Shown here: positions 44,192 through 54,647 of the stretch, one piece after another | How the letters are laid out: each line of letters starts with the position of its first letter | Numbering within the stretch: the first letter of the stretch is position 1 | Assembly (NCBI GenBank): GCA_012744475.1 | Contig: JAAYBV010000056.1 | Span: 1-64,000, forward strand | Origin: Phycisphaerae bacterium | GTDB taxonomy: Bacteria; Planctomycetota; Phycisphaerae; Sedimentisphaerales; Anaerobacaceae | Reading direction: 5' to 3' | DNA: 64,000 nucleotides | The notes under the pieces: generated by a model | Database searches by the model: none | Seen by the model: the letters and a program-made list of their open reading frames with translations, nothing else | What the model was told of the DNA's origin: nothing | Position numbers and translations under genes: made by a program

Positions 44192-47005
44192 CTACCGCCT
44201 GGCAACCACGGCGAGGCTGGATCGGAACTCGTACGCTCCGGCCGCCAGCTCGATTGCGGCGCAGCCGTTGTCGGTGCGCAGGTGTTTGAGGCCCTTGGTC
44301 TTCGCCAGCTCGCTGCCGCCTTCGGTGATCGTTTTGTCGTCGGCGGTCGGCAGGTACAGCGTCGCCGTCGTGTTGGGCGGAACGGTGACATTCAGCGTCA
44401 GCACCCGGTCGTCATCGATCCGCCAGCGACTCTCGATGCGGCCGTAGAGACTGTCGTGATGCGCTTTGACCCATTTCATCGATGGATCGTCGATGAGGCC
44501 CGGTTTGAGGACGAAACGCTGGAAGCCCGGACGATCCGTATCGGTCTTGATGCCCGCCAGACCTTCGATGAACCACGTCCCGACGTACAGGTACGAACTG
44601 TGGCACAGCGAGTTGTCCATCCTCCATGATTCGGTGATCGCGGTGGCGCCGTTGCGGCGCATCAGGCCCCAACTCGGGTACGTGTCCTTGTTGACCATCG
44701 GGAAGATCAGGTCCTGGCGGTCGGCGTCGAGCAGCGTCTTGAACAGGAACGCCCCGCCGGTGATGCCCGCGTGGATGTGCCCCTTGCGCACGACCAGAAT
44801 CTCCTTCTCAAGCCGGTCCCAGATCGCTTGTCGCAGCTCTTTCGGAGGCAGGTCCACCAGCAGCGCGATCGCCAGATAGCCCTGGAAGCCGTTGACGTAG
44901 CTGTTCAGTTCGGGCTTGAAGAACTTCGCGTGCACCGCGCGGCGCACCTGGTCGGCCCGCGCGCGGTACTTCGCGCCGGCGTCCTTCTCGCCGATCACGT
45001 CGGCGATCTTGGCAGCCGTCTGCAAATTGAATATCCAGTAGCAGTTGTTGAAGAACAGCGTCTCGATCGTGTCGCCGTTGACGCCCTCGGCGCCGGGCCA
45101 GAGCCAGTCGCCCAGGAAGTCCCACTCGCCGCCCCATCGCACCAGCATGTCGTCCTTGGCCTTGGTCTCGAGGAAGGCCAACCAACGCTGGATCGTCGGG
45201 AAATTCACCTGGCAGATGCGCGTGTCGCCATAGCGCTCGTAGATCTCCCAGGGCAATGTCACGCAGTAACCGCTCCAGCCGGGCCCGCCCCCGCCCCAGT
45301 AGGTCGGCGCGGTGTAGGGCAGGTTGCCGCTCTCGACAGTGTCCTTCGTCGCGGCCTTGTCCCCGCCGGTGCCCCAGGCGCTCTCGCCGCCCTGCACGTC
45401 GCGCCAGTCCTGGGCCCATTTCGTGTAGAAGGCGCCGAGGCTGAAGTGGTTCAGCCCGCACTCGGTCGTCGCGTGGGCGTCGCCGCCGTAGCCCATTCGC
45501 TCGCGATGGGCACAGTCGACAACGTAGCCGCCCAGGCTCAGGTCCTCGAACGTCAGCAGCGTCGCATCGTGCACCCAGTTCAGCAGCTCGTTCGAGCACT
45601 CGAAACTCGACGCCTGCGCATAGTCGGTGCGCACGAGATGCGCGCGAATATCATCAAGCTTGGGCTTGTACTTGAGCCCCTCGATCGTCACCCACTGGCC
45701 CGTGAAGTAATTGAACCGATTTCGGAACGTGCCTTTGCCCGAAGGGCCGATGACGTACTTGCTGTGCAGTCGGTGCGTCATGTCGGCCTTGGACTGCTCG
45801 GAGAACTTCATCTCGACGGTGTCGCCGGGCTCGCCCCGCAGGTCCATCTCGAACAGGCCGGTCATGTTCACGCCCAGGTCCACGCGGTAGACGCCGGGTT
45901 TGGGCTCGGCGATCGCGACGGGCTGGACCTCGCGGATGCGCCGATTGGGCTCGACCATCTCGGCCGACAGCCTCAGCGAGGGCGAGTAAACCACCGCCGG
46001 CTTCCAGTCTGAATCGTCGAAGCCCGCCTCGCACCAGTCGGCCACTTCCTGGCGGGCATCGTACCGTTCGCCGCCAAAGTGCATGAAGTCCCAGATGCCC
46101 AGCAGCGTGTTCGGGCTGGCGTGCGTCCGCCAGGTGGCGTCGGTGACAATTCGCATCGTGTTGCCGCCGGGCAGCTCGATGTCGGCCTGCGCCAGGACAA
46201 TCGGGGTCTGCGGCTTGTCGGGCGTCTTGTACTGCGGGAAGATCGACCACGAAACGCCCAGCCACAGCCCGATCACGTTCTGGCCTTCTTTGAGGTAGTC
46301 GGCGATCTCGTACGTGACATAGCGGGCCCGCTTGCGGTAATTCACCGCGCTTGGCGCCAGCACGGTGTCATCAACCTTCTTGCCGTTGACGTACAGCTCA
46401 TGGTAGCCGACCGAAGCGACGTAGACCGTCGCCCGCTCGGGCCTGGCGCTCAGCGCAAAGCTCTTGCGCAGCCACGGATCGGGCACGTCGTTGTCGGGCG
46501 GCGGCCAACCCTGTTTGCGCTCGAAGGTCTTGTCGGCGCCGATCCACTGCGCGTGCCAGTCGTTCTGCGTCAGCAACCCCATCGTCCAGCGGGCCGGCTC
46601 GCTCCAGGGCGAGACGATGTCGCTTTCGTCCCGGACCTGCACCTTCCAGAAACATGCCATGCCCGAGGTCAGAGGCTTTCCATCGTATGCGATGTGCGCC
46701 GACTGATCCGAGGCGACCATGCCGCTGTCCCACAGATCGCCTCTGCCCTGGCCGAGGAGGTCCTCTGTCGAGGCCACCAGGACGCGATAGCCGCTCTGCC
46801 GCTGGCCGCGTGCGCTCGCATCCGTCGCAGCCAGTTGCCAGCTCAATCGCGGCTGTGTCACGTCGATGCCCAATGGGTCGTGCAGATACTCGCACCGCAG
46901 CGCCGCTGGCGTCACGGAGCACGCACGCTGGCCCGCAAGAACGCCGGCGTGCGGCAGCAGAACGATGAGAACGAGGAAGAAAGGCAAGCGTGTCGATGTC
47001 TTCAT
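44192..47005 (-). CDS. secreted GH78 alpha-L-rhamnosidase
   Basis: Cleaves terminal alpha-L-rhamnose, as in rhamnogalacturonan or ulvan-like glycans. The 937-residue chain begins with a signal peptide (1-25, ending GVLA). It follows the family order: an N-terminal fibronectin-like domain (PRLSWQL), beta-sandwich domains to about 460, then the (alpha/alpha)6 barrel. Characteristic motifs are DCAHRERMGYGGDA and WGLMRRNGATAITESW. The acidic residues in those motifs include the presumed general acid and base. A C-terminal beta domain ends the chain. AGGAGG precedes ATG 47005. It is the first gene of a run GH78-GH29-ThuA. Confidence 0.92.
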   Translation of the reverse strand: MKTSTRLPFFLVLIVLLPHAGVLAGQRACSVTPAALRCEYLHDPLGIDVTQPRLSWQLAATDASARGQRQSGYRVLVASTEDLLGQGRGDLWDSGMVASDQSAHIAYDGKPLTSGMACFWKVQVRDESDIVSPWSEPARWTMGLLTQNDWHAQWIGADKTFERKQGWPPPDNDVPDPWLRKSFALSARPERATVYVASVGYHELYVNGKKVDDTVLAPSAVNYRKRARYVTYEIADYLKEGQNVIGLWLGVSWSIFPQYKTPDKPQTPIVLAQADIELPGGNTMRIVTDATWRTHASPNTLLGIWDFMHFGGERYDARQEVADWCEAGFDDSDWKPAVVYSPSLRLSAEMVEPNRRIREVQPVAIAEPKPGVYRVDLGVNMTGLFEMDLRGEPGDTVEMKFSEQSKADMTHRLHSKYVIGPSGKGTFRNRFNYFTGQWVTIEGLKYKPKLDDIRAHLVRTDYAQASSFECSNELLNWVHDATLLTFEDLSLGGYVVDCAHRERMGYGGDAHATTECGLNHFSLGAFYTKWAQDWRDVQGGESAWGTGGDKAATKDTVESGNLPYTAPTYWGGGGPGWSGYCVTLPWEIYERYGDTRICQVNFPTIQRWLAFLETKAKDDMLVRWGGEWDFLGDWLWPGAEGVNGDTIETLFFNNCYWIFNLQTAAKIADVIGEKDAGAKYRARADQVRRAVHAKFFKPELNSYVNGFQGYLAIALLVDLPPKELRQAIWDRLEKEILVVRKGHIHAGITGGAFLFKTLLDADRQDLIFPMVNKDTYPSWGLMRRNGATAITESWRMDNSLCHSSYLYVGTWFIEGLAGIKTDTDRPGFQRFVLKPGLIDDPSMKWVKAHHDSLYGRIESRWRIDDDRVLTLNVTVPPNTTATLYLPTADDKTITEGGSELAKTKGLKHLRTDNGCAAIELAAGAYEFRSSLAVVARR

Positions 47006-47142
47006 GTCGGCCTCCTGAGCGATCCCGGTTCGGCGAATCCACAGCGGACGGATGCCATCCGTATGCACCGCCCGCGCGCCGATTATACGGCGGCCGACCG
47101 TATCACACTACGGAAAACTGCCGGGCGCACAGCCGGCAGAAG

Positions 47143-47307
47143 TCACTGCCGGCCGGCACGCGTATCGCCGGGCTCCGCTCCGTCATTGCCTTCGATATGG
47201 CGCTCCACATGCCAGACCGCCTTCACCAGGGCGACCGCCACCCACACGCCGCTGAGAATGACCAGCCCGGCCGCCACGATCACCAGCATCAGCAGAGCGA
47301 CCATCAT
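47143..47307 (-). CDS. small membrane protein coupled to the symporter
   Basis: A 54-residue protein with one transmembrane helix (VALLMLVIVAAGLVILSGV) and a polar C-terminal tail (HVERHIEGNDGAEPGD). Its ATG (47307) overlaps the symporter stop as ATGA, and a second ATG follows at once. Small single-span companions of SSS-family transporters are known; this one has the right size, position and topology. I therefore infer an accessory subunit. No ribosome-binding site other than the coupled stop-start is visible. Confidence 0.65.
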   Translation of the reverse strand: MMVALLMLVIVAAGLVILSGVWVAVALVKAVWHVERHIEGNDGAEPGDTRAGRQ

Positions 47308-48695
47308 CGGTTGGGCCTCCGCAGAAGACCATGGGCGAAGTGACCCACGGCATAGGCCGCCAGCGAACAGACCAACGCCGGGAGGATCGATCCGACCTCG
47401 GTCTTGACGAAGGTCTCCAGTTGAAGCAGGATGGCCACCGCCGTGCCCACCGTCATGGACAGAATCCCCGCCAGAGGACGCGGGTGGCGAATCCACAAAC
47501 CGAGGAACAGTGCCGGCAGGATCGCGGGCGCCCAGATGTTGTAGCAGACCAGCAACCCCTTGATCACGCTGGGAACGAACAGGGCCATCCCCGCCGCAAT
47601 CGTAGCGATCATCACGGTCGAGTACCGTCCCGCGAGCAACGCCGCACTGTCCTGGCGGACGGTGAACCGCCGAAGGATGTCCTGTGTGAACACCACCGCT
47701 CCGGCGTTCAGCAGGGAATCGAGGCTGGACAGAACGATGGACACCAGCGAGACCAGCAGCAAAGCGTACGCCGCATCAGGCATCGTCGCCTTGACCAGGG
47801 TCAACAGCACGTAGTCCTCGCCTGTATCGGCAGGGACCACCGTTTGCGCGACGACGCCGAGGGAGATCATCACCGCGAACCACAGCGCGCTGAAGACGCC
47901 TGCGAGAATGAATCCGTTGCGAGAGACCACCGTGGTCCTGGACGCCAGCGCGAGGTTCGCGTACGGCGGGATCAGCGTCTCCCCCAGGAGAAAAGCGGTG
48001 ACGAAGCCGACGATCTCCAGCGGCGGCGTCGCCTGCAATCCATGCGCGGTCGCGTCCATCGCCTGCTGCCAGAACGCCGTGGCGCCGCCCTGAAAATGGA
48101 ACAGCAATTCGTAGAGCAGCACGCCCGGAAGCAGCAGCGCGAACAGCGCGAAGTGATATGCGTCGGTGATCACGCTCGCCCGCAGGCCCCCGAAGGCGGT
48201 GTACGAGGCCGTCACGATGGCCACGACCGCCACGGAGAACCGCGGCGGCAGACCGAAAACATCGTTCAGGACCACGGCCCCGGCGCTGATCATCACCGCC
48301 GAGAACAGCGTGCACAGAAGCACGGAGATGAGCCCGGCGAGAATCTGACATCGCGGTCCGTATTTCTGTCCGATCGCGTCCCCCAGGGTGTAGCAGTCCT
48401 TCAGTTCCCGCAGTTTCGGGGCGATCAGCAGACCGACCAGAACGTTCTGGAGAGAGTACGCCAGTCCGATCAACAGAAAGAAGAAGCCGCTGCGATATCC
48501 CCGGCCGACAAACCCGATGGAGAACGCCGGACCCACGTACGTCGCGCACAGGCTGCCGAAGATCAGGGCCAGGGGAAGCGTACGCCGGGCGATGGAGAAC
48601 TCCGCATACTCCCGTGCGGTCCGGGCGCGCGCGGCCACGACAATCAGCCCGACCACGTAGCCCGCCACCAGCGCCACCGAGACCACCGTATGCAC
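47304..48695 (-). CDS. sodium:solute symporter (SSS family)
   Basis: A 463-residue, 12-13-helix Na+-coupled transporter of the SSS family. The N-terminal helix (VVSVALVAGYVVGLIVVAA) is followed by R-T-A-R-E-Y-A-E-F-S-I-A-R-R, ATYVGPAFSIGFVGRGY, and SIVLSSLDSLLNAGAVVFTQD, the last near the Na+-binding SSLDS signature. The substrate is not deducible; its position beside rhamnosidase and fucosidase genes suggests sugar or sugar-acid uptake. The GTG start at 48695 has AGGGAAC upstream. It is followed by an ATGA-coupled small membrane protein. Confidence 0.85.
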   Translation of the reverse strand: MHTVVSVALVAGYVVGLIVVAARARTAREYAEFSIARRTLPLALIFGSLCATYVGPAFSIGFVGRGYRSGFFFLLIGLAYSLQNVLVGLLIAPKLRELKDCYTLGDAIGQKYGPRCQILAGLISVLLCTLFSAVMISAGAVVLNDVFGLPPRFSVAVVAIVTASYTAFGGLRASVITDAYHFALFALLLPGVLLYELLFHFQGGATAFWQQAMDATAHGLQATPPLEIVGFVTAFLLGETLIPPYANLALASRTTVVSRNGFILAGVFSALWFAVMISLGVVAQTVVPADTGEDYVLLTLVKATMPDAAYALLLVSLVSIVLSSLDSLLNAGAVVFTQDILRRFTVRQDSAALLAGRYSTVMIATIAAGMALFVPSVIKGLLVCYNIWAPAILPALFLGLWIRHPRPLAGILSMTVGTAVAILLQLETFVKTEVGSILPALVCSLAAYAVGHFAHGLLRRPNR

Positions 48696-48770: not shown

Positions 48771-49850
48771 CTATTCACGCCCATCCTGAAACGCTTCCTC
48801 CTCCAGCTCGCTAATCACGGCATCCAGCTCGGACTCCGTGCGAATCCACCCGACCTCCGGATCGACCAGAAAGGATTGATACCACTGAATCAGGTTCTTG
48901 GCGAAGTCGGCGTCCTTGCAGTAGATGCCGAACGAGATCTCCCCGGCGTGCGAACCCGCTTTGTGCGGGATCTGCGGAAAGGCCAGCAGCACCGCGTCAC
49001 GGCTCAGCAGAAACTCGATGTCGGAGACCTTGCTGCTGTAGATGCGCAGCCGGCCCGATTCGATGGCGTCGGGATACTTGCGAAACAGATGCCGGGCGGC
49101 GTTGGAGAACCCGGGAACGCTGAGGTTCATCGCGCGATGCACCCGGACATCGGGATACTCTTCGATGATCGTGTAGAGCTGGCTGAGATAGTCGTCCATG
49201 GGCTGCCGCTCGCCCTCGAACAGCATGCAGGTCCACAGCTCGCCCTGCCCGGTCGCGTCCAACTGGTCCTCGCACATCCTCTTGGCGGCGTTGTAGGTCT
49301 CGCGCCGACTGCCGAGCACCTTGAGCTGCCGCTGCATGAGCACCTCCGCCCACACCGGCATGTCCTTGGGCAGCGCATCGGGCGGACAAACGCCCAGACG
49401 CGTCATCAGGCGGAGGAACTGCTTGTGATCCGAGCCGTAGAACCGCCGGCCCACCACGCTGCCGACGTTGCCGTTGCATTCCATCCCGTACCGCTTGTGG
49501 TAGCCGAACGACAGGCGGTGCACCGTGTACCCCCGCTCCGTCAGCTTCTTCTCGAGATCCGCGATCAGGGCGACCGCCTGTTTCTCCGGCGCCTTGTCCA
49601 CCGACAGGTGGACGTTGGGGCACAGCACGATGGGCCGTTCGCCCAGCATGCCCACCAGGGCGCCGAACTCCTCGGCGGCCTGCTCCACCTCCTCCCGGCC
49701 GTCGTACCGCTCGATGCAGACAAACATCACCAGCACGTTCTCGAACTCCGCCCGCGGCTGCGGAGGCGAGATCGTCGCCGGATCGATGCGGTTGCTGGGC
49801 CGTTTGTCCTCGAAATAGCATGAGGAACACTGATAGCTGTCGATGATCAT
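48771..49850 (-). CDS. freestanding archaeal-type ThrRS editing domain fused to a second domain
   Basis: A 359-residue cytoplasmic protein with no aminoacylation domain. Residues 35-140 match the archaeal threonyl-tRNA synthetase editing domain (DTD-like fold). They contain ENVLVMFVCIERYD, CPNVHLS with the conserved His, ERGYTVHRLSFGYHKRYGMEC with the conserved Lys (shown here in parts), and a Gly-rich end. Archaeal enzymes start HSD, but here the N-terminus has CSSCYFE. Residues 170-359 form another alpha/beta domain (LWTCMLFEGERQPMDDYL, AVLLAFPQIPHKAGSHAGEI) that loosely resembles the PLD-like sensor tails of transcription regulators. The gene follows a sigma factor and a 107-residue protein with 29- and 26-bp gaps. 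Role unknown; sensing or clearing mischarged tRNA is a hypothesis. Confidence 0.72.
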   Translation of the reverse strand: MIIDSYQCSSCYFEDKRPSNRIDPATISPPQPRAEFENVLVMFVCIERYDGREEVEQAAEEFGALVGMLGERPIVLCPNVHLSVDKAPEKQAVALIADLEKKLTERGYTVHRLSFGYHKRYGMECNGNVGSVVGRRFYGSDHKQFLRLMTRLGVCPPDALPKDMPVWAEVLMQRQLKVLGSRRETYNAAKRMCEDQLDATGQGELWTCMLFEGERQPMDDYLSQLYTIIEEYPDVRVHRAMNLSVPGFSNAARHLFRKYPDAIESGRLRIYSSKVSDIEFLLSRDAVLLAFPQIPHKAGSHAGEISFGIYCKDADFAKNLIQWYQSFLVDPEVGWIRTESELDAVISELEEEAFQDGRE

Positions 49851-49879
49851 AGCGTTACTTTGATCCCCTGGCGACTCGG

Positions 49880-50203
49880 CTACAGGTTCGCATGGTTGCG
49901 GCTGCGCGCCGGGCTGCTGCTGGGACTCCGCGTTGACGCGCCGGCCTTCTTCTGCCGCGAGACAATGGCCGCGTCAACGCGCGAGATAAAAAGCCCCACG
50001 TCCGGCGTCATCACCTTGTCCCCGAAGCCGGCGCTGTTCATCAGACGCACCATCTCCGTCGCCTCCCAGAAATCGTCCGACTCCCGGATGGCCTTCGCCT
50101 CCTCGCGCGTCAGCGACTTCAGAAACCCGGGTAGACACCCGTCCCGCAGCGCCATCCCATAGTCGGCCAGCAATTCCTGGATCTCTCGATTCACATTTGC
50201 CAT
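49880..50203 (-). CDS. 107-residue unknown protein in the sigma/editing-domain operon
   Basis: No family is recognised. The N-terminal two thirds are predicted helical and charged (NREIQELLADYGMALRDG, then LTREEAKAIRESDDFWEATEM). The last 25 residues are Ser/Arg/Pro-rich and probably disordered. ATG 50203 is chosen because the longer in-frame reading has non-coding character and overlaps the sigma gene. The gene lies 26 bp after the sigma factor and 29 bp before the editing-domain gene. A partner or anti-sigma function is possible from position alone; no transmembrane helix or zinc motif is present. Confidence 0.6.
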   Translation of the reverse strand: MANVNREIQELLADYGMALRDGCLPGFLKSLTREEAKAIRESDDFWEATEMVRLMNSAGFGDKVMTPDVGLFISRVDAAIVSRQKKAGASTRSPSSSPARSRNHANL

Positions 50204-50229
50204 CGGTTGTCCACTTTCCACAGAAGACC

Positions 50230-50805
50230 TCAGTCCTCTTCGTCGGAATACTCTTTCATCATGCGCCGCAATTTCAAGATCGTCCGGAACTCCAGCATCT
50301 TGACGGCCCCCACCGTCGTCTTGAGCTGGATGGCGATCGCCCGGTTCGACATCCCCTGCATCCACATCTCGATGGCCTTGCGCTCGCGGGCCTTCAGCTT
50401 GCCCAGCATGCGATGCAACAGTTGCCGCAGCTCGGCCTGCTCGGTAATCTCATGCAGGCCCATCTCCGGCGCCACCAGGTTATCCAGGTCCGCCTGGGAT
50501 AACGCCAGGTTCCGATTCATCCGCCGATACACCTCGCGGAGCCGCTTGCGCATGTAGTACAGATACACGGTGCGCAGCAGATGCGCGTCGTTGGCGATGT
50601 CACGCAAGTGATCCGGGTTTTCCCAAATGTCGGCATACACATCCTCGAGCACATCCTCACATTCCACCTCGTTGCCGAGGTAGCGATACAAATGGCGGAT
50701 GAAGATGTTGAACGTCGCCCGAACAAACGGTTCCATCGCCCGGCGACGCGACTCGGCATCAGGGCTCGTCAATCCCTTCAGAGCATTACGCAGCCGCTTA
50801 TCCAT
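50230..50805 (-). CDS. ECF-like sigma factor
   Basis: A 191-residue sigma70-family protein. Region 2 is around residues 15-85 (FVRATFNIFIRHLYRYLGNE, then DVLEDVYADIWENPD). Region 4 is around 125-185 with helix-turn-helix LKARERKAIEMWMQGMSNRA, followed by LKTTVGAVKMLEFRT. Regions 1 and 3 are missing, as in ECF factors, but the sequence is divergent. The ATG at 50805 has a weak upstream site. It heads a three-gene run with the 107-residue protein and the editing-domain protein, which suggests that these are its regulators or targets. No anti-sigma with a membrane helix follows. Confidence 0.8.
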   Translation of the reverse strand: MDKRLRNALKGLTSPDAESRRRAMEPFVRATFNIFIRHLYRYLGNEVECEDVLEDVYADIWENPDHLRDIANDAHLLRTVYLYYMRKRLREVYRRMNRNLALSQADLDNLVAPEMGLHEITEQAELRQLLHRMLGKLKARERKAIEMWMQGMSNRAIAIQLKTTVGAVKMLEFRTILKLRRMMKEYSDEED

Positions 50806-50871
50806 ATCCGGTTGTGTCGTTCTCCACTTCGCGATTCTGGCGGTCCCGGCGTCTCCGACGAGGCCCGGGGC

Positions 50872-50890
50872 GCGGGGCACTGTACCCCGC
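50872..50890 (-). terminator. GC-rich hairpin between propeller gene and sigma gene
   Basis: GCGGGG and CCCCGC (6 bp) with a 7-nt loop, lying 34 bp past the stop of the propeller gene and 67 bp before the sigma start. There is no T-run, so it could equally be an operator for the sigma gene. Confidence 0.3.
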
Positions 50891-50923
50891 AAACCCGTAT
50901 TGTATCGTGGATATCTGAGAAAC

Positions 50924-52198
50924 TCAACCGGCAAACGGCCGCGTTGCCCCCCTGTTTCGGTTCCCTGGGTACGACCGCATCGGGCGGTCCATCGTCTTGT
51001 CCAAACGACCGCCGGAATCCTTCGGCGCCGCCTCGGCGGGCACCGGACCGGAGATCGGCACTTCACTGAAATGGGACTGAAGCCATGTCCCGGCCAGGAT
51101 CGCCACGTCGGCGAAATCCACCCTGCAGTCTCCGTTCACGTCCCCGGCCGGCGGCGATGCGCAACCGGCCACATCCGGACCGTCCAGCAGGGCCGCATAG
51201 ATGTTCCACGGCCCCCGACGGTTGTCCTGCCAGAGGACCGTGCTGCCGCTGATGACCGGATGGATCTGGTCGCCGGGATCGTCCGTGATTCGGAACGTCC
51301 GCCGAGTGACCAGGTTGTGGCCGTAGATGTCCCATTGCCCGTTGCGGTTGTCCTGCCACACGACCAGGTGTCCTTCGACGTCCGGATGACGCTGGTCGCC
51401 TTCGACGGAGGCGATCACAAGCTCGGTCACCTGATTCTGGTCGGAAAGGCGGGCGCCGAAGATGTCCCAGTCCCCGTAGAAGTCGTCCTCCCAGACGACC
51501 GTGTCGGCGTGAACGACCGCATTCTGCTGGTCGCCTTCGAGCAGGACCACCGCAAATTCCGCCGGTCGATCACGCATCAGGATGTCCGCCGCCACGATGT
51601 CGTTGTCGCCGAAATAGCTGTCTTCCCACACCACCGTGGTACGCCAGATGGATGGCCTCTGCTGGTCGCCCTCGAAGGCGGCGACGACGAATTCGCTCGG
51701 CCGCTCCGGGTCGGTCACGTCGGCGCCGAAGATGTTGTAGTCGCCGCCGCTGGTGTCCTGCCAGACGACCGTGTTGCCGTAGATGGCGGGCCTCTGCTCG
51801 TCGTTGGCGGGGATGTCGGAGACGATGTAGCCGATCGGCTCGTCGAAGCGGCTCAAGTCCGCCATGTGGATGTCCCAGTCGGACGAGTCGCCCCAGACGA
51901 TCAGGTCCTGCCAGACGACCCGGTGTCCGTAGACGGCCGGGTGCATCTGATCGTTCGCGTCGCCAATCACAGTGACCAGCGGGTTCTCGATGTCGTTGAA
52001 ATCGACAACGTAGACGTCATAATCGCCAAACTGCGAGACGAACTCGTGCCATACCGCCACCGTGCCGTGCAGATCGGGATGCTGCTGATCGTCCGGCCCC
52101 GGGAGGATGGGCCATTCAGCCCACGGTCCGGCCTGGACCGCCGATCCGGCAGTCAGCAACAGAAACAAAAGTGTTCTACCTCGGCGACGGAACATCAT
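50924..52198 (-). CDS. secreted TolB-like beta-propeller protein with dockerin-like repeat
   Basis: A 424-residue exported protein. A short basic N-terminus and hydrophobic helix (RTLLFLLLTAGSAVQA) form a signal peptide. About seven repeats of some 45 residues follow the pattern EGDQQRPxIxxxxVVWxD then a GDxDI-type turn, matching TolB/WD40-like propeller blades. A dockerin-like calcium loop GDVNGDCRVDFADVAIL follows at about 353. The tail is Pro/Arg-rich. ATG 52198 or 52195 overlaps the end of the upstream gene by about 20 bp, with AAGGA nearby. A cell-surface or cellulosome-like scaffold attachment is possible, but no cohesin gene is in the window. Confidence 0.82.
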   Translation of the reverse strand: MMFRRRGRTLLFLLLTAGSAVQAGPWAEWPILPGPDDQQHPDLHGTVAVWHEFVSQFGDYDVYVVDFNDIENPLVTVIGDANDQMHPAVYGHRVVWQDLIVWGDSSDWDIHMADLSRFDEPIGYIVSDIPANDEQRPAIYGNTVVWQDTSGGDYNIFGADVTDPERPSEFVVAAFEGDQQRPSIWRTTVVWEDSYFGDNDIVAADILMRDRPAEFAVVLLEGDQQNAVVHADTVVWEDDFYGDWDIFGARLSDQNQVTELVIASVEGDQRHPDVEGHLVVWQDNRNGQWDIYGHNLVTRRTFRITDDPGDQIHPVISGSTVLWQDNRRGPWNIYAALLDGPDVAGCASPPAGDVNGDCRVDFADVAILAGTWLQSHFSEVPISGPVPAEAAPKDSGGRLDKTMDRPMRSYPGNRNRGATRPFAG

Positions 52199-54647
52199 CT
52201 TCTTCCTTGGCCGGGCTCTCCTGGCGACCCGCATTCACGGGAACCATCTGACCGTAGTGGGTGTTCGGATCGAGGTTCGGCGTCGTCTTCTCGACCGGTG
52301 CCTGCTGGTTCGCATCTTCCGACGCCGAGCCCTTCACACGCTCGAGCACGTTACTCTTGGACGATGTCGCCGGCGCCGCAGCGTCCGGTGTCACGGCACC
52401 AGCGCCTGAAACACCCTGCGATCCAGCAGCGCCACCCGTCGTCCCGGCGGCCTCCTGCTTGTTCAGCACGTTCAACAGCACCTTCGCCGCCTGCGCGTTG
52501 CGGATATCCTGGCCCGCCTGCTCCAGCGGTCCGCGTGCATACTCCATCTCGCCGACGCCCAGCAGGTGATAGCCCAGCAGAAGCTGGAGGTCCGCATCGA
52601 ATCCATAGGCATCGACCTTGTCCAGCAGCTTCTCGAGCTGACCGAACAGAACCTCATCCTGCGCGTAGAGGCCGCGAGGATAGAACACGCCCTCCTGCTC
52701 GGGCGAGGCGTTCTTCAACGCCGCCCGCAGGGCCTCAGCCGCCTCGGAGTACTGGCCGTTGGCGAACAGCGCCTGGGCATAGGCGAACGGCAGGATCATA
52801 TCGTTCGGCGCCATGGACATGGCGGAGGCAAAGGCCTGCGCCGCCTCGGCATAGTTGCCGGCTTCGAAGCGGGTCACGCCTTCCTCGAATCGCGTATCGG
52901 CCTGTGTCGGGGCGCCCGGCTCTTTGGCCTGCTGCTCCCGGACTCTCTGCTGGACCCGGGCATAGGTCTCGGCGTCGATCCCGTAAGGCAGGCCACCCGA
53001 GCTGGTCTGCGTCGTCTGGGTCGGGTAACCGCCGTCACCGGTGTAGTAGTTGTAGGTGTAGTAATTGTACGTGTCGCCCTCGACCTCGCGCGGGATCGGG
53101 TAATAACCCATCCACACGTAGGGATGGTAGCCATACCAGTAGTATCGCACGTAGTCGTAATCCCAGGGCCACCAACCGCCGAGGCTGATGAACACGTACT
53201 TGCGATGATAGTACGGATAGACCCAATGGTATCCGTGATAGGGACCCCAGTCATAGTAGATCGGATAGTGGTATCGCGGCCAGATGATCCGATGGCACAG
53301 ACGGTCGTAGTGATCGCGATAGACGTGCACGTGTCGCGGCTCATGACGGACCAGGTCCGGACGGTCGCGGTAGACCACCCGAGGCCGAACCGTGTGCTCG
53401 CGATGAATACCGCCGAGGTCACGCTGGACGACGCGGTCGGGCCGATGGCCAATGGACCGCTGCAACCGTGGCTCCAGACTCGTTCGCTCGCGCAGCTCCG
53501 GGCCGGCGGACCGGACACGTTCGTTGCGCTCGACGGGGCTCTCGGCGCGATCCCGCACGGAGTCGGCCTTGCGAACGCCGATGCGATCGCGCGTGGCCTC
53601 GCGGATACGGTCGATTCCCTCGCTGCTCGACGGCGAGCGCGACGTGATCGTCCGGCTGCGGTCCGCCGTAGCATTGCGACTCATGTCACGGCTGGACTCG
53701 ACCGCGCCGGAGCGGCTCGTCGACACGGAGTCTCCCGTTCGCGGCGTCGGATTCGGCCGCTGACGCTCCAAGCGCCCGACAATCTCGTCCCGCTGCTGCC
53801 GCGCATTCCGGCCGATGTCGCCGGAACGGCTGCTCGATCGAGTCACATCTCTCGTCGGTGTCGAGCCGGTCGAAGGACTCTGAGGCGTCGGAGTCATGGT
53901 TCTCGTCTGCGGCGTCGTGGACCGACGATTGAATATCGTCCGTTCTCGCAGCCGCGAACTGCCCGAGTCGACCGAGGGCGTGCCCTGCGCCAACGGAGTG
54001 GTCGGAGTCGCCGACGGCGGAGTGATCTGCTCCGTCTGTCGCTTGCCGATCCGGCTGCCGATGTTGTTGGTCCGGCCCGGGCTCAACGTCCCCGACGGAC
54101 TCGACACCGAAGGCGTCCGCACGATCGTCGAGTTGCCGGGACTGGGAGTCGTCGGCATGCTCGGCGAGATGTTTTCCGTCGAGGGCGTCAACCGCCGAAA
54201 GGTCGTCGGAGTCCGTACGTTGGACCGGATCGACGGGCTCGGCGCGGCCGGTCCCGAGGAATTCGGTTGGCTCTGCCTGCTGATCGAAGGCTGTCTCTGG
54301 ATGACCGACTCGCTTCGCGATGGAGCGGTGAACGACCGGCTCGGCGCCGAAGGCGTCGACGGTGCAGGCCGGCTGATGCTCGGCGACGGACTGCGCGTCG
54401 GCGTCCGGGTCACCGTCGGGCTGCTACGGTTGATCTGCATCCTGGGCTGCGACCCAACACTGATGCGCGGACTGACCGACCGGCTGGGCGCAGACCGTGA
54501 TACCGATGGAGCCGACCGGCTGGCCTGGCCCCCGCCGCCGCGCGAGCTCCGCTGGGCCTCGGCCGACGGGGCAAGCAGCAAGGCCGCCGCCAAGGCAATG
54601 GCCCCCGCTGTCATCAAAGAATCGAGTTTTTTCTTCGTCGAGAACAT
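52176..54647 (-). CDS. secreted Ser/Arg/Pro-rich protein with Tyr/His/Trp-rich region and TPRs
   Basis: An 823-residue exported protein. Signal peptide 1-31 (AAALLLAPSAEAQ). Residues 32-395 are low-complexity Ser/Arg/Pro/Thr, likely disordered. Residues about 400-545 are very rich in Tyr, His and Trp (HYPIYYDWGPYHGYHW, GYHPYVWMGYYPIP). Residues about 590-720 resemble TPR helices (FEAGNYAEAAQAFASAMSMA, then YSEAAEALRAAL). AAAGGAG lies 7 nt before ATG 54647. A promoter-like TTGGCT-N17-TATCCT lies upstream. Similar Tyr/His-rich modules with TPRs occur in planctomycete secreted proteins of unknown function. It overlaps the downstream propeller gene, so both may be expressed together. Confidence 0.75.
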   Translation of the reverse strand: MFSTKKKLDSLMTAGAIALAAALLLAPSAEAQRSSRGGGGQASRSAPSVSRSAPSRSVSPRISVGSQPRMQINRSSPTVTRTPTRSPSPSISRPAPSTPSAPSRSFTAPSRSESVIQRQPSISRQSQPNSSGPAAPSPSIRSNVRTPTTFRRLTPSTENISPSMPTTPSPGNSTIVRTPSVSSPSGTLSPGRTNNIGSRIGKRQTEQITPPSATPTTPLAQGTPSVDSGSSRLRERTIFNRRSTTPQTRTMTPTPQSPSTGSTPTRDVTRSSSRSGDIGRNARQQRDEIVGRLERQRPNPTPRTGDSVSTSRSGAVESSRDMSRNATADRSRTITSRSPSSSEGIDRIREATRDRIGVRKADSVRDRAESPVERNERVRSAGPELRERTSLEPRLQRSIGHRPDRVVQRDLGGIHREHTVRPRVVYRDRPDLVRHEPRHVHVYRDHYDRLCHRIIWPRYHYPIYYDWGPYHGYHWVYPYYHRKYVFISLGGWWPWDYDYVRYYWYGYHPYVWMGYYPIPREVEGDTYNYYTYNYYTGDGGYPTQTTQTSSGGLPYGIDAETYARVQQRVREQQAKEPGAPTQADTRFEEGVTRFEAGNYAEAAQAFASAMSMAPNDMILPFAYAQALFANGQYSEAAEALRAALKNASPEQEGVFYPRGLYAQDEVLFGQLEKLLDKVDAYGFDADLQLLLGYHLLGVGEMEYARGPLEQAGQDIRNAQAAKVLLNVLNKQEAAGTTGGAAGSQGVSGAGAVTPDAAAPATSSKSNVLERVKGSASEDANQQAPVEKTTPNLDPNTHYGQMVPVNAGRQESPAKEEDDVPSPR

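Follow-up and report, generated by a model that had tools for sequence, protein, structure and literature searches.

How does a domain that in archaea proofreads threonyl-tRNA come to lie in a tight gene run behind a bacterial sigma factor? The locus that raises this question sits in a window of 64,000 nucleotides, the whole stretch of DNA analyzed here (positions 1 to 64,000, forward strand, of contig JAAYBV010000056.1), from the Phycisphaerae bacterium assembly GCA_012744475.1 (GTDB lineage Planctomycetota; Phycisphaerae; Sedimentisphaerales; Anaerobacaceae). A first-pass annotation had described three minus-strand genes separated by gaps of 26 and 29 nt and encoding a sigma factor, a small helical protein (mid), and a protein with an editing domain (the ED protein). 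Coordinates, strand, lengths, and gaps all proved exact, and the three-gene run stands as described; a fourth conserved member, the gene for an SSF-family symporter (47304-48695), had been overlooked. The features of the locus are as follows.

50899..50927, minus strand: housekeeping sigma70-type promoter (TTGAGT, 17 nt, TACAAT) 5' of the sigma gene, from motif scoring
50230..50805, minus strand: ECF-like sigma factor, 191 aa (TIGR02937, Sigma70_r4_2)
49880..50203, minus strand: mid, a small helical protein of 107 aa and candidate sigma partner (32-sequence alignment, AF2 model)
48771..49850, minus strand: ED-PLD protein (ED protein), 359 aa (PF08915, E = 7.9e-19)
49434..49850, minus strand: ED protein residues 1-139, archaeal-type ThrRS editing (DTD-fold) domain (superposition on 4rr6)
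48786..49334, minus strand: ED protein residues 173-355, TrmB-sensor-like PLD-fold domain without HxKxxxxD (superposition)
47304..48695, minus strand: SSF-family sodium:solute symporter, 463 aa, fourth cluster member (PF00474)

Distribution of the cluster

Of 89 genomes in this GTDB family, 48 encode the ED protein (65 to 95% identity), 45 a sigma orthologue (E ≤ 1e-30), and 43 the symporter (E ≤ 1e-60); a search of the order's 161 genomes recovered mid in 45, all of them cluster-carrying members of the family. The sigma factor and mid are missing beside the ED protein only in three genomes (G016, G078, and G080) and the symporter in five (G018, G038, G045, G074, and G087, with 158 to 539 nt remaining past the ED gene where readable), and each of these absences is explained by the position of the cluster at a contig end. 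Conversely, at the thresholds used, family genomes without the ED protein also lack the sigma factor, mid, and symporter. It is the larger genomes (from ∼3.1 Mb) that have the cluster, in 20 of 45 genera. Among the order's remaining 72 genomes, none of the four was found, and in a draw of 392 genomes from the phylum the editing domain gave weak matches only, while the PF08915 profile returned only proteins of a standalone type. A scan of named species genomes yielded 21 loci, all in Planctomycetota MAGs and titled Phycisphaerales, Sedimentisphaerales, Phycisphaerae, or Planctomycetota/Planctomycetes.

Across the family loci, the gene order sigma-mid-ED-symporter is constant, and a 4-nt overlap of mid and the ED gene is frequent. 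The same order recurs at ∼43 distinct loci, and therefore the cluster is not a product of chance. The expectation that the grouping would be conserved thus holds across the carrier genera of one family, but in the neighborhood survey it does not extend to Phycisphaerae at large. A mobile or plasmid origin was also considered and rejected: the plasmid search gave no match, and no related viral contig was found. Upstream of the cluster, two minus-strand genes (50924-52234 and 52176-54647), which encode a TIGR04275 (Methanosarcina-type) beta-propeller repeat protein and a Ser/Pro/Arg-rich TPR protein, are retained at about half of the loci. Downstream of the symporter lies an alpha-L-rhamnosidase gene (44192-47068, minus strand); a similar gene is present downstream in one other locus (L105), and no conservation of this neighbor was otherwise seen.

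Editing half of the ED protein

The proposed archaeal-type editing domain was borne out by sequence and by model. Residues 28 to 128 match PF08915, the archaeal ThrRS editing domain, at 68.5 bits (gathering threshold, 30.2; E = 7.9e-19). The profile also matches 37 of 37 members of the ED family, and the closest solved relatives of the N-terminal part are archaeal ThrRS editing domains (E = 2e-11). In an AlphaFold2 model built from a 37-sequence alignment of relatives (mean pLDDT, 73.6), residues 1 to 139 superpose on 4rr6 with a Z score of 19.6 and an rmsd of 1.6 over 131 residues (VIA-align); DTDs are more distant (Z ∼ 14). The N-terminal editing domain of archaeal ThrRS (Pyrococcus abyssi NTD, 1y2q and 2hl1) shares this fold with the ED protein at Z scores of 18 to 20, together with the PxxHLS and FGYxK motifs and the equivalents of His83 and Lys121. 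In contrast to archaeal ThrRS, the ED protein is bacterial, is encoded in a sigma operon, has no synthetase body, and is fused to a PLD-fold domain; relative to the archaeal editing domain it carries His for Tyr120, Val, Ile, or Thr for Glu134, and CxxC for the HSD start. The specific residues singled out at first pass were likewise recovered: the conserved His and Lys are His81 and Lys119 (P. abyssi His83 and Lys121), present in 44 of 44 sequences, and the Cys pair in place of HSD is Cys8 and Cys11, invariant in the 44 sequences. As also claimed, a synthetase domain is absent, both from the ED protein and from the rest of the cluster.

In the Pyrococcus domain, seven side chains lie within 6 Å of the scissile bond: Pro80, Phe81, Ala82, His83, Tyr120, and Lys121, plus Glu134 of the partner subunit (PMC4491819). 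Their equivalents by alignment in the ED protein are Pro78, Asn79, Val80, His81, His118, Lys119, and Val132, the first six of which are invariant in the 44 sequences, with Val, Ile, or Thr at position 132. With 39 invariant positions among the 139 of the whole domain, the inclusion of six of the seven pocket positions among them has a hypergeometric P of 0.002. The Tyr/Glu pair of the serine pocket is not kept, with His118 at the Tyr120 position in 44 of 44 sequences. Lys121 positions the catalytic water and is needed for catalysis, whereas Tyr120 and Glu134 hold the serine, and Pyrococcus domains with Ala in place of either (Y120A and E134A) still discriminate and deacylate (PMC4491819). With the Lys kept and two serine-holding residues changed, the editing pocket is, judged by its sequence, under constraint and could be active, and its ligand has likely changed relative to that of the archaeal domain.

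Other PF08915 proteins exist in the phylum. Standalone proteins of ∼136 to 165 aa, encoded by 25 genomes in a sample of 294 from Planctomycetota (L080-L091, L052, L053, and L072), are, like the ED protein, editing-domain homologues without a synthetase body; they differ from it in lacking both Lys121 and the second domain. Where aligned, they keep His83, and Asn or Cys replaces Lys121. At one such locus (L053), the neighbors are a chromate-transporter-like gene and a PadR-like regulator, and no sigma gene was seen.

Could the ED protein then still edit tRNA? It might be a trans-editing deacylase for misacylated tRNA, perhaps not Ser-tRNAThr, as two substrate-holding residues differ, with the PLD half binding tRNA and the sigma factor running a response to translation-quality or amino acid stress. 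The invariant His and catalytically needed Lys would suit such an enzyme, as would the activity of the Y120A and E134A mutants, and that the Lys is retained is notable, since standalone relatives in other Planctomycetota have lost it. Against this, the window genome has a canonical DTD as well as, elsewhere, a full bacterial-type ThrRS with its TGS and SAD editing domains, both proteins being intact by profile; moreover, most genomes of the order have no ED protein, and the conserved symporter does not fit. We therefore consider trans-editing rather unlikely. The narrower idea that the ED protein stands in for a defective ThrRS or an absent DTD was rejected on the same two proteins, whose presence makes a backup proofreading role unlikely; most cluster-bearing genomes also have DTD.

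PLD-fold half of the ED protein

The tentative resemblance of the second domain to a PLD-like sensor holds at the level of fold. Residues 173 to 355 of the model, where confidence is moderate, match PLD-fold proteins, including the TrmB sugar sensor (2f5t; Z = 11.1 over residues 175 to 339), TrmBL2 (5bpi; Z = 11.1), phosphatidylserine synthase PssA (8yr5; Z = 10.9), and NucT (6ehi; Z = 10.1). Invariant residues are many in both halves of the protein, with runs in the second half at, for example, 204-214 and 301-308. The HxKxxxxD (HKD) catalytic motif was not found anywhere in the 359-aa sequence; PLD catalysis by the second half is for this reason unlikely on sequence grounds, and a TrmB-like ligand-binding or regulatory role, as the model suggests, is the better guess. 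The archaeal regulators TrmB and TrmBL2 carry a C-terminal PLD-fold sensor with the fold of the ED second half (Z ∼ 11) and no HKD motif. Unlike them, however, the ED protein has its editing domain at the N-terminal place and lacks a winged-helix DNA-binding domain, and it has no sequence-level match to the Pfam TrmB family.

Symporter

The fourth protein matches PF00474 at 103.2 bits (cut-off, 22.8), a family shared with the SSF symporters vSGLT, PanF, and PutP, and keeps the Ser-Ser pair of the Na2 region when aligned with vSGLT; no subfamily equivalog cut-off was reached. Its gene lies directly downstream of the ED gene, ∼1 to 250 nt away, in loci with enough flanking sequence. The window genome's symporter shares 82% identity with copies from another genus and 64% with those from its own; its ED protein, in contrast, is 92 to 95% identical to that of close members of its own genus. 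The transporter thus seems, from these identities, to have been exchanged in place while the rest of the cluster stayed. In one genome (G004), an intact symporter gene lies behind a second ED copy, a remnant with a broken frame (L105, 5799-7996), and the symporter gene after the intact sigma-mid-ED set is truncated.

A constant transporter next door invites a metabolic explanation, in which the ED protein would be an enzyme acting on a small solute imported by the symporter (an aminoacyl ester, an amide, or a nucleotide-like compound) and the sigma factor would regulate the uptake and breakdown pathway. Besides the position of the symporter gene, always next to that for the ED protein, the many invariant residues in both ED halves would fit an enzyme, and the symporter gene shows faster divergence and, in the window genome, stands nearer to the copy of a different genus, as if the substrate range varied. 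Yet the second half matches no enzyme family and lacks the HKD motif, and no other catabolic gene is conserved beside the cluster. We judge this explanation unlikely.

Sigma factor, promoter, and small helical protein

The sigma-factor identity of the first gene was upheld, with region 4 (Sigma70_r4_2, 30.5 bits; Pfam cut-off, 25.7) and NCBIfam TIGR02937 (sigma70-ECF, 53.7 bits; cut-off, 42.9) above their cut-offs and region 2 below (Sigma70_r2, 18.4 bits; Pfam cut-off, 24). A 191-aa protein of the sigma-70 family composed of regions 2 and 4 only, it has the makeup of an ECF sigma factor. ECF sigma factors are typically found with autoregulation and a neighboring anti-sigma factor, though exceptions exist (review, PMC8103513). 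The present locus resembles the pairs with an adjacent soluble anti-sigma factor in its short sigma factor (regions 2 and 4) and in the small soluble protein encoded by the next gene (PMC8103513); it differs from them in having no recognizable anti-sigma domain, in a sigma70-type promoter where ECF autoregulation would be usual, and in its putative sensor, which would be the editing/PLD fusion.

In the upstream regions of 39 relatives, the best sigma70-type site scored on average 9.3 of 12, versus 7.8 in dinucleotide shuffles, and a score of at least 10 of 12 was reached in 38% of the regions versus 1.5% of shuffles; in most regions, the best site has a spacing of 17 nt. Because this conserved promoter is of sigma70 type and not ECF type, it fits control of sigma activity better than autoregulation, though a second promoter, of ECF type, may exist, and it points to basal expression with sigma activity controlled by partner proteins. 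Just past the predicted transcription start, the window has a possible hairpin (GCGGGG...CCCCGC, ∼50860-50895, minus strand); similar hairpins were seen by eye in close relatives (TACGGG/CCCGTA and TGCGGG/CCCGCA), with shifts of register between sub-clades. Rfam gave no known RNA family in the leader, its sole match within the window being a tRNA.

The small protein mid has no family match in Pfam or NCBIfam, where it also showed no recognizable anti-sigma domain. It has 21 invariant positions in a 32-sequence alignment, and its AF2 model of five helices (pLDDT, 69; modest confidence) found no fold match in the PDB. A mid paralogue in the window genome itself (L098, contig 43; 1302-1622 and 5276-5845) stands at the end of another ECF operon, as does one at L101; this operon also encodes a dockerin-bearing small protein and, as its last long gene, a VIT-VWA protein. 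Further paralogues in the genus (L102 and L104) occur in other contexts. One relative has an additional sigma-mid pair (71% and 59% identity; L099, 6029-6936) that lacks an ED gene and a symporter gene and has a possible lipoprotein gene behind it.

A candidate sensor module

The reading we favor, tentatively and at somewhat less than even chances, is a four-gene, family-specific sigma module in which the ED/PLD protein serves as a cytoplasmic ligand sensor. The housekeeping promoter would provide basal transcription of the operon, and the sigma factor would probably be held in check by a neighboring protein, most simply mid, for which a role linked to the sigma factor is plausible and which is its likely partner. 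The ED protein would be a cytoplasmic sensor with two ligand sites, the editing pocket and the TrmB-like PLD-fold site; the former still looks suited to binding a 3'-aminoacyl-adenosine end or a similar aminoacyl or nucleoside ligand. The ligand state, set in part by symporter uptake, would alter the contact of the ED protein with mid or the sigma factor and so release the latter for its target genes. Protein-protein binding, the nature of the ligand, the direction of control, and co-transcription of the symporter are elements of this scheme that we infer.

Several observations lead us to favor the sensor module: the near-perfect co-occurrence and adjacency of the four genes, the joining of an editing fold and a TrmB-like fold in one protein, the invariance of six of seven pocket positions, and the occurrence of mid paralogues in another ECF operon and of a second sigma-mid pair without the ED protein. 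The ThrRS editing domains and DTD otherwise present favor a role other than backup proofreading. That the four genes are ordinary neighbors kept by slow rearrangement, with no shared function, is very improbable: carriers do all belong to one family, but order and tight spacing are kept down to 47 to 65% protein identity while flanking genes differ, and the four genes are absent together. Other points count against the sensor module. Target promoters of the sigma factor did not come to light. Mid has no recognizable anti-sigma domain, and some of its paralogues lie away from sigma genes; the symporter gap is longer in many genomes, and that gene could have its own promoter; and TrmB-like folds are common to true PLD enzymes, so that the sensor role is read from the loss of the HKD motif only.

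Regulators derived from tRNA-charging enzymes exist, GCN2 with its HisRS-like domain being the textbook case. We found no literature report in which a proofreading domain works for a bacterial sigma factor, nor one of this gene combination. The conserved four-gene set suggests the recruitment of a proofreading fold into gene regulation, and a link between tRNA proofreading chemistry and transcription control, as proposed at first pass, may exist. A more specific version, which we hold to be doubtful, is that the editing pocket reads the end of an aminoacyl-tRNA, or a molecule resembling aminoacyl-adenosine, and together with the TrmB-like half controls the release of the sigma factor. The cluster offers a clear case in ∼45 genomes: the operon is defined, ligand analogues and key residues of the pocket are known, and a conserved transporter points to the signal. 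If the specific version is true, tRNA charging state or an imported aminoacyl compound would be coupled directly to promoter choice in these Planctomycetota.
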